Positions 2,974-8,384 of a DNA stretch of 17,090 nucleotides are shown here, piece by piece; position 1 is the stretch's first letter, and the number at the start of each line of letters is the position of its first letter. A model generated the notes under the pieces. It saw only the letters and a program-made list of their open reading frames with translations. It ran no database searches and was not told where the DNA came from. Source of the DNA: Synechococcales cyanobacterium PMM_0073 (lineage in GTDB: Bacteria; Cyanobacteriota; Cyanobacteriia; Elainellales; Elainellaceae); NCBI GenBank assembly GCA_949127695.1, contig CASBQH010000175.1, positions 1 through 17,090 of the forward strand, in the 5' to 3' direction. The position numbers and the translations under genes were made by a program.

Positions 2974-3026
2974 GTTGGGCTTCAGCTACAGGCTGTCAGC
3001 CTTTGGTTTTAATACCTTTGATCAAG

Positions 3027-3100
3027 TCGGGATGACAGGATTCGAACCTGCGGCATCCTGCTCCCAAAGCAGGCGCGCTACCAAGCTGCGCTACATCCCG
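3027..3100 (-). tRNA. tRNA-Pro (UGG)
   Basis: On the minus strand a 74-base cloverleaf can be folded. The acceptor stem is CGGGATG with CATCCCG, with discriminator A at 3027. The D arm contains AGCTTGGTAGC, the anticodon arm is CCTGC-TTTGGGA-GCAGG with anticodon TGG, and the T arm contains GGTTCGAATCC. The anticodon UGG reads proline codons. CCA is not encoded (CTT follows), so the end must be added enzymatically, which is common in cyanobacteria. The gene points toward the 3' end of the binding-protein lipoprotein gene. Confidence 0.96.
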
Positions 3101-4105: not shown

Positions 4106-4111
4106 GTGAAA

Positions 4112-4178
4112 AGTGTGAGGAGTAAAGTAGAAAAAGCTCTTGGAGTCGAAACACGGAAAGACGCCCAGGAGCTTTTTT
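4112..4178 (+). ncRNA. candidate small RNA ending in an intrinsic terminator
   Basis: Between the bioD and M20 genes an RNA of about 67 bases can be drawn on the plus strand. It starts just behind an extended -10 element and has a single-stranded purine-rich 5' part containing GTGTGAGGAGT (4113-4123). It ends in a strong hairpin with arms at 4131-4143 and 4165-4177: 13 pairs including one G-U. An inner GTC/GAC extension (4145-4147 with 4160-4162) closes a 12-base loop, and a T6 run ends at 4178. The hairpin could instead be the late terminator of bioD or an attenuator of the M20 gene, whose ATG is 105 bases further on. The reverse complement of the 5' part is the 11-base core of the cyanobacterial sRNA Yfr1. 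Confidence 0.42.
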
Positions 4179-4283
4179 ATTTTAAAATTTTCTTGCTTTA
4201 GATGTTTTTCTTGTTTTAAATAGACAGGCTAGGTGAGCAGTCAGAGACTGCGGAGCAGCACCTGCTTAAGATAAGCTAACGGC

Positions 4284-5571: not shown

Positions 5572-6168
5572 ATGACCACAGAGTTTGGCAGCGAAATTAA
5601 TCGCCTGGTGGAGCTGATGCCAGCCTCAGGGCGAATGTATTGCAAAATCATCAGCGATCCAAACCAGCCGACGGTAATTCTGGCTCGCCTGCCGCGCCCC
5701 AACCAAGAAATTCGCCGGATTCGGATCAACTTTGACCTCTGGCAGCAGTTCAGCCAGTCTCAGCGCGATTTGCTGCTGCTGCGCGCCGTCAGCCGTCTCA
5801 CCTCAATTCAATGGCTCAAACCCGAACTCTACCAAGGGCTAGCCGCCGCCGGAGCCACAATTACTCTGCTGGAGCTATTCCAAGCCAACGCAGCAGGGAT
5901 AATTACCTTCGGCGGCTTAACCGGGCTAGCGGTTGCTCAAATCTGGCGCAAAAATCGCAGCAGCGAAGCCGAAATGATCAGCGATGAAAAAGCCGTCAAA
6001 GTGGCTCAGCGTCGTGGCTATAGCCAGTCTGAGGCCACCAGAGCCTTGATTGAAGCGATTGAGGCGGTCGCTCAAATTGAGCAGCGCAACCTCAGCGTCA
6101 CCGAACTGCTGCGCTGCCAAAATCTGCGCGCCAGTACCGCTATGGATAGCGCCATCCCGGCTCGGTAG
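5572..6168 (+). CDS. DUF3318-type cyanobacterial protein of unknown function
   Basis: From ATG 5572 (GAGG about 9 bases upstream) the protein has 198 residues. The frame is open back to 5446, but that extension would run through the 17-bp repeat array and overlap the M20 gene, so I reject it. The N-terminal part has INRLVELMPASGRMYCKIISDP and RIRINFDLWQQFSQSQRDLLLLRAVSRL, the layout I associate with DUF3318. A hydrophobic stretch at residues 87-125 could form one or two membrane segments. The C-terminal third is a charged helical region (YSQSEATRALIEAIEAVAQIE). No catalytic motif is seen and the function is unknown. It is probably co-transcribed with the M20 gene. Confidence 0.75.
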   Translation: MTTEFGSEINRLVELMPASGRMYCKIISDPNQPTVILARLPRPNQEIRRIRINFDLWQQFSQSQRDLLLLRAVSRLTSIQWLKPELYQGLAAAGATITLLELFQANAAGIITFGGLTGLAVAQIWRKNRSSEAEMISDEKAVKVAQRRGYSQSEATRALIEAIEAVAQIEQRNLSVTELLRCQNLRASTAMDSAIPAR

Positions 6169-6288
6169 CCAGCCCTTGGCAGGCTCCAATCAGACTCACC
6201 ATGCCGACGAAATACTGTATGCAATAGAGTCTGGGATCAACATAGGGCAAGGGTTGCAGCCGATTAAGTTAATTCAACCGACTGTAGA

Positions 6289-6317
6289 TTGACGCCTCAC
6301 TAGGGCGGTGTTACATT
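6289..6317 (+). promoter_or_regulatory. sigma70-type promoter of the riboswitch leader
   Basis: A -35 element TTGACG (6289-6294), a 17-base spacer and a -10 element TACATT (6312-6317) predict a start of transcription near 6324. That is about 30 bases ahead of the riboswitch aptamer, the right place to drive it. Confidence 0.6.
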
Positions 6318-6352
6318 GTCAGAGATGGAGCGTGATCGAGTTTCAAATAACC

Positions 6353-6505
6353 CAGCCTAATCCAGCTGGCTCTGAGCTAAATGCAGAGCCGAGCTGAAGC
6401 GGAGGAACCACATTTGGGGCTTATTCTAGAGCGGCTTCTAGTCCGCCAGAAGGGGCACCTCTCAGCCCTAGCCCGTCAGCTAACTCCGTCGGCGGTGAGA
6501 GGAGA
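6353..6505 (+). promoter_or_regulatory. cyclic di-AMP riboswitch (ydaO/yuaA motif)
   Basis: The conserved blocks of the ydaO/yuaA aptamer occur in order. GCCTAATCC (6355-6363) opens it. A variable hairpin follows with arms CAGCTGGCTCTG and CAGAGCC-G-AGCTG (6363-6396). Then come GCGGAGGAACC (6399-6409), TTTGGGGCTTATT (6413-6425), AGGGGCACCTCTCA (6451-6464) and GTCAGCTAACTCCGTCGGC (6475-6493), closed by TGAGAGGAG (6496-6504). Expected pairings are present: CGGAG with CTCCG, GCC with GGC, and ACCTCTCA (6457-6464) with TGAGAGGA (6496-6503). The class binds c-di-AMP and in many bacteria turns off genes for potassium and osmolyte transport or cell-wall remodelling. The next full gene is the universal-stress-protein gene at 6939, about 430 bases on; no terminator directly abuts the aptamer. 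Confidence 0.92.
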
Positions 6506-6623
6506 TTGAGGAGACAGAATTCTAAAGCTGTTCTCGTCAGAATCTCCAACCAACAGGCCAATCAGCAGCAGAGGGTTGATTGACCGGCTGTTAACCTACG
6601 AGTTGTTAACTTTGAGGAGACTG

Positions 6624-6683
6624 ATGGAGAAATCTGATCATATGCATGACTATGGCTTGCATGACTGTGCCTTGCATGACTGA
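6624..6683 (+). CDS. possible 19-residue leader peptide with LHD repeats
   Basis: A short ORF lies in the leader between the riboswitch and the universal-stress-protein gene. It has a strong Shine-Dalgarno GAGGAG (6614-6619) 4 bases ahead of its ATG. The peptide is MEKSDHMHDYGLHDCALHD. Three 15-bp tandem copies (6643-6687) fall in frame and give three His-Asp pairs spaced five residues apart. Supporting it are the ribosome-binding site and the in-frame repeat; against it are its length and lack of known relatives. It resembles nothing I recognise. Confidence 0.3.
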   Translation: MEKSDHMHDYGLHDCALHD

Positions 6684-6687
6684 GGCA
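6643..6687 (+). repeat. three tandem copies of a 15-bp unit
   Basis: The units TGCATGACTATGGCT (6643-6657), TGCATGACTGTGCCT (6658-6672) and TGCATGACTGAGGCA (6673-6687) share the core TGCATGACT. They lie within the leader of the universal-stress-protein gene and inside the possible short ORF. Confidence 0.85.
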
Positions 6688-6838
6688 ATAGATATTAGGT
6701 TTGTCGAGCGCTCTGCCTGAATGAGCTGCCGTTGAATAGAGCCTTTTAGACAGGGTTTAGAGCATCTGCCCTAGCCAGAGGTTCAAATTATCGTCAGCTA
6801 GCAACTGCTGATGGCAACTGCTGGACTGAGTAAAATTC

Positions 6839-6915
6839 TGGAGTGGGAGCTTTAATTTAGCTTCCGCTGTAGCGCTGATCACAGTTTGTACTGACTCCCC
6901 TCCAAGCCATTTTTT
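6839..6915 (+). terminator. candidate leader terminator ahead of the universal-stress-protein gene
   Basis: TGGAG-T-GGGAG (6839-6849) can pair with CTCCC-CTCCA (6895-6904), giving 10 pairs with one bulged T. A T6 run follows at 6910-6915, 23 bases before the ATG. An inner hairpin GGGAGCT/AGCTTCC (6845-6851 with about 6859-6865) competes for the same left arm, so alternative folds are possible. The large loop makes the terminator uncertain. If real, it could be a distant expression platform for the riboswitch. Confidence 0.35.
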
Positions 6916-6938
6916 AAGTACTCCCTCACATCTACGAT

Positions 6939-7628
6939 ATGAACATTAAACCCATGCTGCTGCGCCTTCAAGGGGCACTCGGACAGGATAATTTGGGCGA
7001 GCAAATGCTGCTCTATCCGGGCGTCGAAGCCCAAAGATCACCTGAGGCGACGGGCAATTTTGTGATTGGCTACAGCGGCTCACCCAACAGCCAGACCGCG
7101 CTTGATTTTATCCTCTGGATGGCGCATCAAACCCGGCAGGCGACCGGCAAGCAGGTGATTGTGCATGTGGTCTATGTGATTGACTGCTACAGCTCGCTAG
7201 ATCTGTCGGTTCAGACCAACCGGGCTGCGGGCACTCAGCTAGCTTCATTTGGGCAGTTTGGCCTGCAAGGCAACATGGCCACCCTGGCGCAGCCTCAGTC
7301 GAGTCGGGGTGGCACCCAGCTTGCCGAACGCCAGCCTTCAGGCTGTTTGCTGCCCAATTTGCCACCCAGCCTTCAGCCCAATCTGCTCGAACAAGTTGAC
7401 CGGATTCTGTGGCAAGCTCGCTGCCTCTCAGCCGAATGGCGCGGCTCAGTTGAAGCGCATCTCCGGTTTGGGGCAGTGGCCACCGAACTACTCCAGGTGG
7501 CTGAGGCGCAGTCTGCCGACCTGCTGTTTGTCGGCTGTAGTGACGTAAACCATGCGCTGGTGCAGCAGCTGCGTTCGGAGCTCACCTGCCCGATCTTGGG
7601 CATTCCCACCGAGCTAGAGGCGCTGTGA
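6939..7628 (+). CDS. universal stress protein (UspA) family protein
   Basis: The protein has 229 residues. A Usp-type alpha/beta fold begins at FVIGYSGSPNSQTALDFILWMA (residues 41-62) and VIVHVVYVIDCY (73-84). It is interrupted by a low-complexity Q/S/G/P-rich insert (about 85-148) and ends with VEAHLRFGAVATELLQVAEAQSADLLFVGCS (171-201) and CPILGIP (217-223). The usual ATP-binding GxxG-x9-G(S/T) motif after the VVG strand is absent (GCSDVNHALVQQL instead), so nucleotide binding is doubtful. It lies at the end of an approximately 615-base leader with a c-di-AMP riboswitch, which suggests a role in osmotic or potassium homeostasis or related stress. No clear Shine-Dalgarno precedes ATG 6939; ATG 6954 is an alternative start. 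It converges with the ACT-domain gene, 27 bases apart. Confidence 0.8.
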   Translation: MNIKPMLLRLQGALGQDNLGEQMLLYPGVEAQRSPEATGNFVIGYSGSPNSQTALDFILWMAHQTRQATGKQVIVHVVYVIDCYSSLDLSVQTNRAAGTQLASFGQFGLQGNMATLAQPQSSRGGTQLAERQPSGCLLPNLPPSLQPNLLEQVDRILWQARCLSAEWRGSVEAHLRFGAVATELLQVAEAQSADLLFVGCSDVNHALVQQLRSELTCPILGIPTELEAL

Positions 7629-7655: not shown

Positions 7656-8384
7656 CTAAACTATCGCTCGCCCCAGCAGGCGCTGCCGCACGCCTTCGGC
7701 AATTTTCTGCCCCAGATATTCTGGAATCAGGTTTTCATTCGGGCCTAGCAGATACAGAATCAGCCGCGTGCGGCCTCGCCAGACCAGCAGGTTTGCATTC
7801 ACAATCAGCAGATCTTCCCGCCAAATCGCGTACATCACTTTATAAAACAAACCGGGCTGATTATCTGCTTCAATTAGCAAAGCGGGCAGATGAAAGACTG
7901 GATCGACATAGAACTCGGTTTCTACTTGGTCTAAGCCTGCATCTAGGTTAAACTCCACCGCCAGCATTTCTTCGACCTCAAACCGACCGGCCAGCGCCTC
8001 GCGAATCGCCCGACAGACGTTCTCAGAGGTTTTGGGGCTGAGCGCTTTGCCGCTGCGCGAGACCACCAGCTTCACAAACACCAGCATCGGCGATTCGATC
8101 TGACCGTAGAGGCTGAGGGCGTGAATGGTCAAGCCATAGGCGGCCAAGACGCCAAAAATGTCGCTGAGCAAAAATGACTGATTGCGATAGGCAAAATGCA
8201 GCGCACTCTTGTTACCTTCAGGCGTTAGCTCAATTACGGCCTGCCGAGTTTTGTAGAGCTGATAGGCCAGCTTTAAGTTTTGCAACTGGATCTCGCTGAC
8301 CACAAATTGCTCATAAAACTGCGGGAACGCTCGGTTAAAGCGTTTGAGCAATCCTAGCGTAGACGATTTCAGCCCTGAAGCCAT
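7656..8384 (-). CDS. ACT-domain protein with two ACT-like repeats
   Basis: The protein has 242 residues and no catalytic domain that I can see. Two regions resemble the ACT fold of GlnD or amino-acid-binding regulators: residues about 70-130 (SFLLSDIFGVLAAYGLTIHALSLYG) and about 164-235 (LPALLIEADNQPGLFYKVMYAIWREDLLIVNANLLVWRGR). The second has the typical D-x-P-G-L turn where small-molecule ligands sit. It is probably a cytosolic amino-acid sensor or a partner of another regulator. Its target is unknown and the neighbours give no clue. The region upstream of ATG 8384 is pyrimidine-rich without a Shine-Dalgarno, so the start is somewhat uncertain. Confidence 0.65.
   Translation of the reverse strand: MASGLKSSTLGLLKRFNRAFPQFYEQFVVSEIQLQNLKLAYQLYKTRQAVIELTPEGNKSALHFAYRNQSFLLSDIFGVLAAYGLTIHALSLYGQIESPMLVFVKLVVSRSGKALSPKTSENVCRAIREALAGRFEVEEMLAVEFNLDAGLDQVETEFYVDPVFHLPALLIEADNQPGLFYKVMYAIWREDLLIVNANLLVWRGRTRLILYLLGPNENLIPEYLGQKIAEGVRQRLLGRAIV

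Follow-up and report, generated by a model that had tools for sequence, protein, structure and literature searches.

The stretch of DNA analysed here, 17,090 nt of Synechococcales cyanobacterium PMM_0073 and referred to below as the window, carries a genuine, standard c-di-AMP riboswitch upstream of a gene for a universal stress protein (Usp). The riboswitch is of a known kind; the long leader between it and usp is best explained by loss of an ABC-importer operon, and shortly before the usp start lies a predicted site for a small RNA.

The c-di-AMP riboswitch

A preliminary description, made from the letters of the window alone, had placed a c-di-AMP aptamer at 6353-6505 and suggested a covariance-model search. 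That search (cmscan, Rfam) finds RF00379 on the + strand at 6377-6509 with 59.6 bits against a gathering score of 38 (E 7.2e-12), which is 21.6 bits over the family cut-off, and this is the one RF00379 match in the window genome, a 3.6-Mb, 78%-complete assembly. The conserved CAGCCTAAT block occupies 6353-6361, 5' of the start of the Rfam match, and a hairpin at 6360-6397 folds at -19.8 kcal/mol (z -4.0 against shuffles). Given these two features, the true 5' edge of the aptamer is near 6353, and the start given earlier is better than the Rfam start at 6377. From the Rfam match, the fold, covariation and a tree of riboswitches, the aptamer is assigned to 6353-6509 on the + strand and to the importer (RS1) type.

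A long-range helix pairs a loop strand at 6458-6464 (+, CCUCUCA) with a tail strand at 6496-6502 (+, UGAGAGG), and all seven pairs form in the window. Among 82 of the 83 riboswitch hits in the genomes surveyed below, standard pairs are found at each of the seven positions in 74 to 82 loci, the two strands covarying as in CCUUCCA/UGGAAGG. When partners were redealt among the 27 distinct loop-tail combinations, the observed value was reached in 1 of 2000 trials, a figure that applies to related loci and to a register chosen on the same data, with the one hit of the 83 that has no parsable tail set apart. Overlapping the end of this helix is a post-aptamer hairpin at 6501-6547 (+; -19.2 kcal/mol, z -2.55), the first two pairs of which share G6501-G6502 with the loop-tail helix, and similar arms recur, by eye, in importer-type riboswitches. 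The RNA of 6353-6509 is predicted to bind c-di-AMP, and a gene for a diadenylate cyclase was found.

Other c-di-AMP riboswitches are described, in the portions available of three papers, with K+ transporters and with osmoprotectant and cell-wall genes (PMC6488665, PMC7288161, PMC3766115). The window riboswitch shares with known ones the covarying loop-tail helix and a score above the cut-off, but differs from them in its leader of about 615 nt, in what appears to be a relict ribosome-binding site (RBS) midway along that leader, and in having a Usp gene as the first full gene. Both the long leader and the Usp-domain gene as first full gene downstream had been proposed in the preliminary description, and both are borne out: the open reading frame (ORF) at 6939-7628 begins 429 nt past the Rfam match.

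Association of the riboswitch with usp

We surveyed 60 genomes, among them that of the window. Under stricter search filters, which lose weak matches, 47 gave an RF00379 hit (46 over the cut-off), and a homologue of the window Usp is present in 37. A riboswitch lies upstream of this Usp in 29 of the 37: directly in 22, with gaps of 107-965 nt, and in seven more before a three-gene importer operon, with gaps of 3.5-4.2 kb; two genomes have both forms. These counts retain riboswitch hits below the Rfam cut-off in G013 (by 2 bits) and G007, and a Usp match in G040 despite its in-frame stop. In G034 and G035 importer genes precede Usp and the contig ends before any riboswitch, and in G007, G014, G019, G025, G050 and G053 the 2.3 to 5.3 kb examined ahead of Usp showed neither form.

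Counted by riboswitch, this Usp gene lies behind 31 of the 83 hits (22 directly, 9 via the importer operon) and another Usp behind one more. The earlier opinion that a Usp output is unusual therefore does not hold: behind a c-di-AMP riboswitch, such an output is not out of place in the genomes surveyed. The other 52 hits comprise 2 without and 50 with an ORF of 100 aa or more behind them. These 50 first ORFs include 17 ABC permeases, 5 glycosyltransferases, 5 ATP-grasp, 3 NMT1-like SBP, 3 S4-domain, 2 NfeD, 1 other Usp and 1 GNAT, as picked by a mechanical rule that misses frames opening inside the aptamer (by eye, in G016 and one of G012, for example). A further 10 match CitMHS/ArsB, models to which we take Synechocystis slr0753 to belong. 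A riboswitch before a Usp gene is not stated in those parts of the literature that our search reached, among which the ydaO surveys (Nelson 2013, Block 2010) do not figure, and the association may already be in print.

Several loci of the survey have arrangements of their own. At L144 and L145 (G006 and G014) the riboswitch precedes an NfeD-domain gene rather than Usp, next to ACT-labelled and GNAT genes of the window type. Two divergent c-di-AMP riboswitches stand back to back at L013/L089 (G029) and at L025/L086 (G020), one of each pair facing Usp and the second facing what we take for the S4/YlmH-like gene of the first-ORF tally. Another class of long leaders is seen at L113, L117, L121, L126 and L100, where c-di-AMP riboswitches lie 275-442 nt before ORFs that we take for the five ATP-grasp (sucC-like) matches, L117 being the one checked singly.

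Origin of the long leader

The three-gene operon is an ABC importer: in G009 its permease and ATPase score above the NCBIfam thresholds for ntrB and ntrCD, and its binding protein is divergent. In G005 the gene order is AAA26-M20-DUF3318-RS1-permease-SBP-ATPase-RS2-USP-ACT-GNAT, RS1 and RS2 being riboswitches. The order M20-DUF3318-RS-gap-USP-ACT-GNAT is found in G001-G004 and G017, and the window has the same ("ACT" is the name given here to 7656-8384, for which Pfam yields no match and PII uridylyltransferase models only a weak one). Together with the window genome (G000), these form a group of six long-gap loci, five from genomes of the window's genus (G000-G004) plus G017, in each of which 397-965 nt separate a single riboswitch from usp. 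At the G005 locus (L148), c-di-AMP riboswitches of both types stand in a single gene row, with the importer behind the first and Usp behind the second.

A tree of about 115 nt from 35 of the 83 riboswitch loci, chosen by hand, has one split with 100/100 support, which separates a Usp-dedicated RS2 group of 7 from an importer-type group of 28; the bootstrap is unsettled and long branches meet inside the RS2 group. The window riboswitch falls in the importer-type group with RS1 of G005, while RS2 of G005 falls in the Usp-dedicated group. A second line of evidence lies in the leader itself, where an RBS and start codon at 6614-6626 (+) may be read as the relict start of a lost importer permease gene. 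In each of the six long-gap loci a Shine-Dalgarno sequence (SD) occurs between +92 and +120 counted from P1, and in other loci the SD of the ABC permease genes lies at +100 to +198 after the aptamer. Beyond the putative relict RBS the leader is hardly alignable among the six.

These observations also bear on a different origin, in which an insertion lengthened what was at first the short leader of a riboswitch dedicated to Usp. RS2-type riboswitches do lie 107-328 nt before Usp in seven loci, but the window riboswitch is on the importer side of the 100/100 split, and its leader keeps an RBS where the importer permease starts in other loci; we consider such an insertion very improbable.

The importer genes themselves were sought by their SBP. 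An orthologue (67-81% identity) is present in G001, G005, G006, G014 and G017, and in G001 and G017 it is located elsewhere in the genome, behind a riboswitch of its own. None was found in G000, G002, G003, G004, G022 or G030, where the best match has 38-41% identity, the assembly of G000 being 78% complete. In the Usp tree the window clade has support of 100/98 and is sister, weakly (87/68), to the importer-linked Usp genes plus G014. Ten gaps were also searched for importer traces, with nothing convincing: among the matches listed, the best tblastn E was 0.17, and the best blastn match to importer loci had an E of 0.008 over 20 nt.

On the strength of synteny, the importer-type placement in the tree, the SBP not found and the RBS kept, we read the long leader as probably the scar of a lost ABC-importer operon, with the riboswitch now heading usp. 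The ancestral locus would have had an importer-type riboswitch in front of the three genes of an Nrt-like ABC importer, with usp next in line. In the window group the importer genes would have gone from the locus, with the second riboswitch before usp if there was one, and the remaining riboswitch would now head a leader of about 615 nt running straight to usp. The RBS and start codon would have been kept where the importer permease began, and would now open a 19-codon frame only. That frame, at 6624-6683 (+), has an SD and a sequence that is not conserved; it agrees with the possible ORF of the preliminary description, as do the repeats noted there, three GCATGACT copies at 15-nt spacing in 6644-6682, within the ORF (MEKSDHMHDYGLHDCALHD). 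In an alignment with the nearest relative these repeats were not seen.

We infer loss of the importer rather than its insertion in other lineages. Importer-type riboswitches also stand directly before Usp in G011/G027, G024/G032 and G022/G030/G013, so the importer may have been lost more than once, in separate lineages.

Probable mechanism of the switch and its possible reach to usp

In relatives with the gene close by, the logic of the riboswitch can be followed in the letters, as at L004, where a tail GGAGA, an anti-SD AUAUCUCCUGG and an SD CCAGGAGAUAU follow in succession. In such relatives the 3' tail of the aptamer would have two alternative uses, as a strand of the loop-tail helix or as the partner that keeps the anti-SD occupied; ligand would lock the tail into the loop-tail helix, which would free the anti-SD to cover the SD. 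c-di-AMP thus most likely lowers expression, and our best guess for this type of riboswitch is an OFF switch that acts on translation. Masking the tail in partition-function calculations changed RBS accessibility by a mean of -0.079 over 54 leaders, against +0.001 for random masks (paired Wilcoxon p 7e-7, over related loci). Accessibility fell by more than 0.05 in 23 of the 54 leaders and rose in 4; the corresponding numbers for random masks were 9 and 10, in a control that is damped because each value is the mean of 12 masks per leader. The 29 loci of the 83 that dropped out (1 with no parsable tail, 28 with no RBS by pattern) include L004 and the CitMHS types, where the logic is easiest to read.

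In the window, masking the tail was without effect on its own RBS (0.42 to 0.43), and the loop-tail helix and post-aptamer hairpin compete for two base pairs only. Our reading of the locus nevertheless predicts a single transcript from the riboswitch through usp, and with it control of this usp by c-di-AMP. It would start from the promoter-like sequence TTGACG-N17-TACATT, with a TG before the -10, which a consensus scan finds on the + strand at 6289-6317, where the preliminary description had placed a promoter. In simple consensus scans of 6150-7000 this is the sole + strand promoter-like hit (both strands together give 2, against 0.6 expected), and an alignment shows, by eye, identical hexamers in G002, the nearest relative, and almost identical ones in G001.

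The riboswitch could instead be uncoupled from usp, ending as a short RNA or controlling the 19-codon ORF only, with usp driven by a different promoter and under some other control, such as that of Yfr2. The unchanged RBS accessibility under tail masking is consistent with this, as is a middle of the gap that cannot be aligned within the long-gap group. A possible parallel exists in Synechocystis, where the small RNA Ncr1680 is listed with slr0753 in a table of PMC5386190, and where slr0753, a putative chloride efflux transporter gene, is under a c-di-AMP riboswitch according to the part of PMC10117731 available. The slr0753 leader likewise contains a cyanobacterial c-di-AMP riboswitch, but there a transporter gene is behind it, whereas in the window Usp follows after a long gap. 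Uncoupling is rather unlikely, however, as the scans of 6150-7000 list neither a second promoter-like site nor any terminator-like site on the + strand, and as riboswitch and usp have stayed together at 397-965 nt in six loci despite a freely changing spacer.

The preliminary description had offered two explanations for the distance between aptamer and gene: a far-off expression platform, with a c-di-AMP-controlled terminator at 6839-6915, or an unrecognised element in between. The region 6836-6925 does fold better than most shuffles (-24.3 kcal/mol, z -2.18), and a run of six T follows. However, 6839-6915 is absent from the terminator scan, the T run is not directly behind the 6840-6903 stem, the minimum-energy fold is without that stem, and the arrangement is not recognisable in the nearest relative (leader alignment, by eye). 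We rejected this terminator and regard a far-off platform as extremely improbable; for both suggestions the remnant of an importer operon is the better fit. The leader does contain one feature that had gone unrecognised, a conserved box at 6920-6931, which is considered below.

The Usp protein

The ORF at 6939-7628 (+) encodes a Usp-domain protein of 229 aa that matches PF00582 with 35.7 bits against a gathering score of 24 (Pfam). A search of named genomes yielded four relatives, the nearest named ones being Pegethrix bostrychoides (79% identity over Usp) and Elainella. The ATP loop had earlier been reported missing, and we agree: the Walker A motif G-X2-G-X9-G-S/T was found in the C-terminal 40% of none of 45 aligned family members, hand-chosen from 120 listed homologues. 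The structural model has a mean pLDDT of 79 (residues 98-133 under 50) and the Usp fold. In Foldseek the top matches are mainly named Usp structures, with TeaD first; in a second look many Usp structures were tied and TeaD was seventh. A search of PDB sequences with the single Usp sequence gave a best E of 0.079.

TeaD of Halomonas elongata is described, in the text available of PMC9006882, as an ATP-binding Usp clustered with the TeaABC ectoine transporter. The window Usp differs in being without Walker A and in that its importer is gone, and the comparison suggests by analogy that this Usp may have been the regulator of the importer, as TeaD is for TeaABC. We also considered the protein as a c-di-AMP receptor. 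The KdpD-type c-di-AMP-binding USP motif is given as (A/G/C)XSXSX2N...(Y/F) in the part of PMC8214093 available, and by hand alignment the window Usp has four of its five positions. Across the family, the motif Asn is Ser in 45 of 45 members and the first Ser is Asn in 30 of 45. Unlike the KdpD USP domain that binds c-di-AMP (7ji4), this family does not keep the motif, and a receptor role by that motif was rejected.

A conserved box before usp

Although the sequence before it is hardly alignable, a box located 10-20 nt before the Usp start is common to the six long-gap loci. It reads ACUCCCUCACAU in the window (6920-6931, +), CUCCUCGCAC in G002 and UCCUCAC in the other four, and it is complementary to the 5' motif GUGUGAGGAGU of Cyano-1 (RF01701), an RNA that we take to be of the Yfr2 family. 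A Cyano-1 RNA, the putative trans partner of the box, is present in the window at 4109-4180 (+), between the AAA_26 and M20 genes (Rfam; 52.7 bits against a cut-off of 41), and Cyano-1 was matched in 31 of 36 family genomes, in 28 over the cut-off. The assignment of Cyano-1 to Yfr2 fits the portion of PMC2662882 available, which describes a conserved central loop and, at the 5' end, a conserved stretch that is unpaired. Cyano-1 and the riboswitch share a contig in G001-G004 as well. The window also contains, on the - strand, a tRNA-Pro (TGG) gene at 3026-3100.

In ten loci (G000-G004, G017, G008, G009, G014 and G026) the duplex with the Yfr2 motif has a mean energy of -16.8 kcal/mol, reached by 0 of 1000 motif shuffles; this group of related loci was defined after the box had been seen, and the complementarity holds in 10 of 10 within it. 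For the remaining 28 leaders the motif is no better than shuffles (29.5%), and strong sites occur also in G006, G012 and G021. The duplex tests used one consensus motif, with own-genome motifs in 7 of the 10 loci, the G002 pick not being its Cyano-1 copy. Among 12 other gene starts of the window there was no strong Yfr2 site (best -13.2), and in the fetched loci 14 of 147 gene starts reach -14 kcal/mol, nine of them Usp and two importer genes, the 33 "background" starts of this comparison coming from loci chosen for the motif rather than at random. The genome has 51 copies of WYTCCTCAC and 21 of a reversed control. We rejected UUCCUCAC as a general start-site motif: in 8 of 30 loci examined (of 51) it lies near a start, taken as the start codon of a frame of at least 100 codons within 45 nt, and several of these are weak.

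The box might instead pair in cis with the 3' tail of the aptamer (GUGAGRGGAG) as a long-range switch in which Yfr2 has no part. Two tail sequences do pair better with the ten-locus group (means of -14.0 and -14.8 kcal/mol) than with the other 28 leaders (-9.4 and -9.9), but the Yfr2/Cyano-1 motif pairs better still. When longer leaders of G000-G004 and G017 were shuffled, the tail duplex was matched in 4-34% and the six Yfr2 duplexes, with own-genome motifs, in 0 to 14%, G001 being the weakest. G014 likewise has a strong box, and no riboswitch turned up there in the 2.3 kb of upstream sequence on the contig. We set box-tail pairing aside as the weaker of the two and consider a cis switch unlikely.

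Returning to the pairing with Yfr2, we treat the site as a lead, because pyrimidine-rich leaders may be common and the ten loci are related: from complementarity, the box at 6920-6931 is a candidate Yfr2 target site on the usp mRNA, through which Yfr2 might control Usp. We put forward tentatively the possibility that the mRNA takes input from two RNA elements, with a c-di-AMP riboswitch at the 5' end and a Yfr2 (Cyano-1) site ahead of the start codon. The box resembles the Yfr1 motif. Yfr1 interacts with Yfr2, as stated in the part of PMC6778093 available; the box is likewise complementary to the 5' motif of a Yfr2-type RNA, but unlike in the Yfr1/Yfr2 pair the site is in a Usp mRNA leader that also carries a riboswitch. 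Yfr2 targeting of a Usp mRNA is not stated in the portions of the literature searched.

Implications

In this cyanobacterial family, the linkage described here connects c-di-AMP with a single conserved Usp subfamily and with an Nrt-like importer. The window locus, read as a probable scar, shows how the loss of an operon can leave a riboswitch with a long leader, and it provides a testable candidate for a Yfr2 target mRNA. If the two-input usp mRNA is real, it would be a point at which c-di-AMP osmotic signalling meets the Yfr1/Yfr2 small RNA network, and in this group it would have outlived a lost ABC importer as its orphaned regulator.
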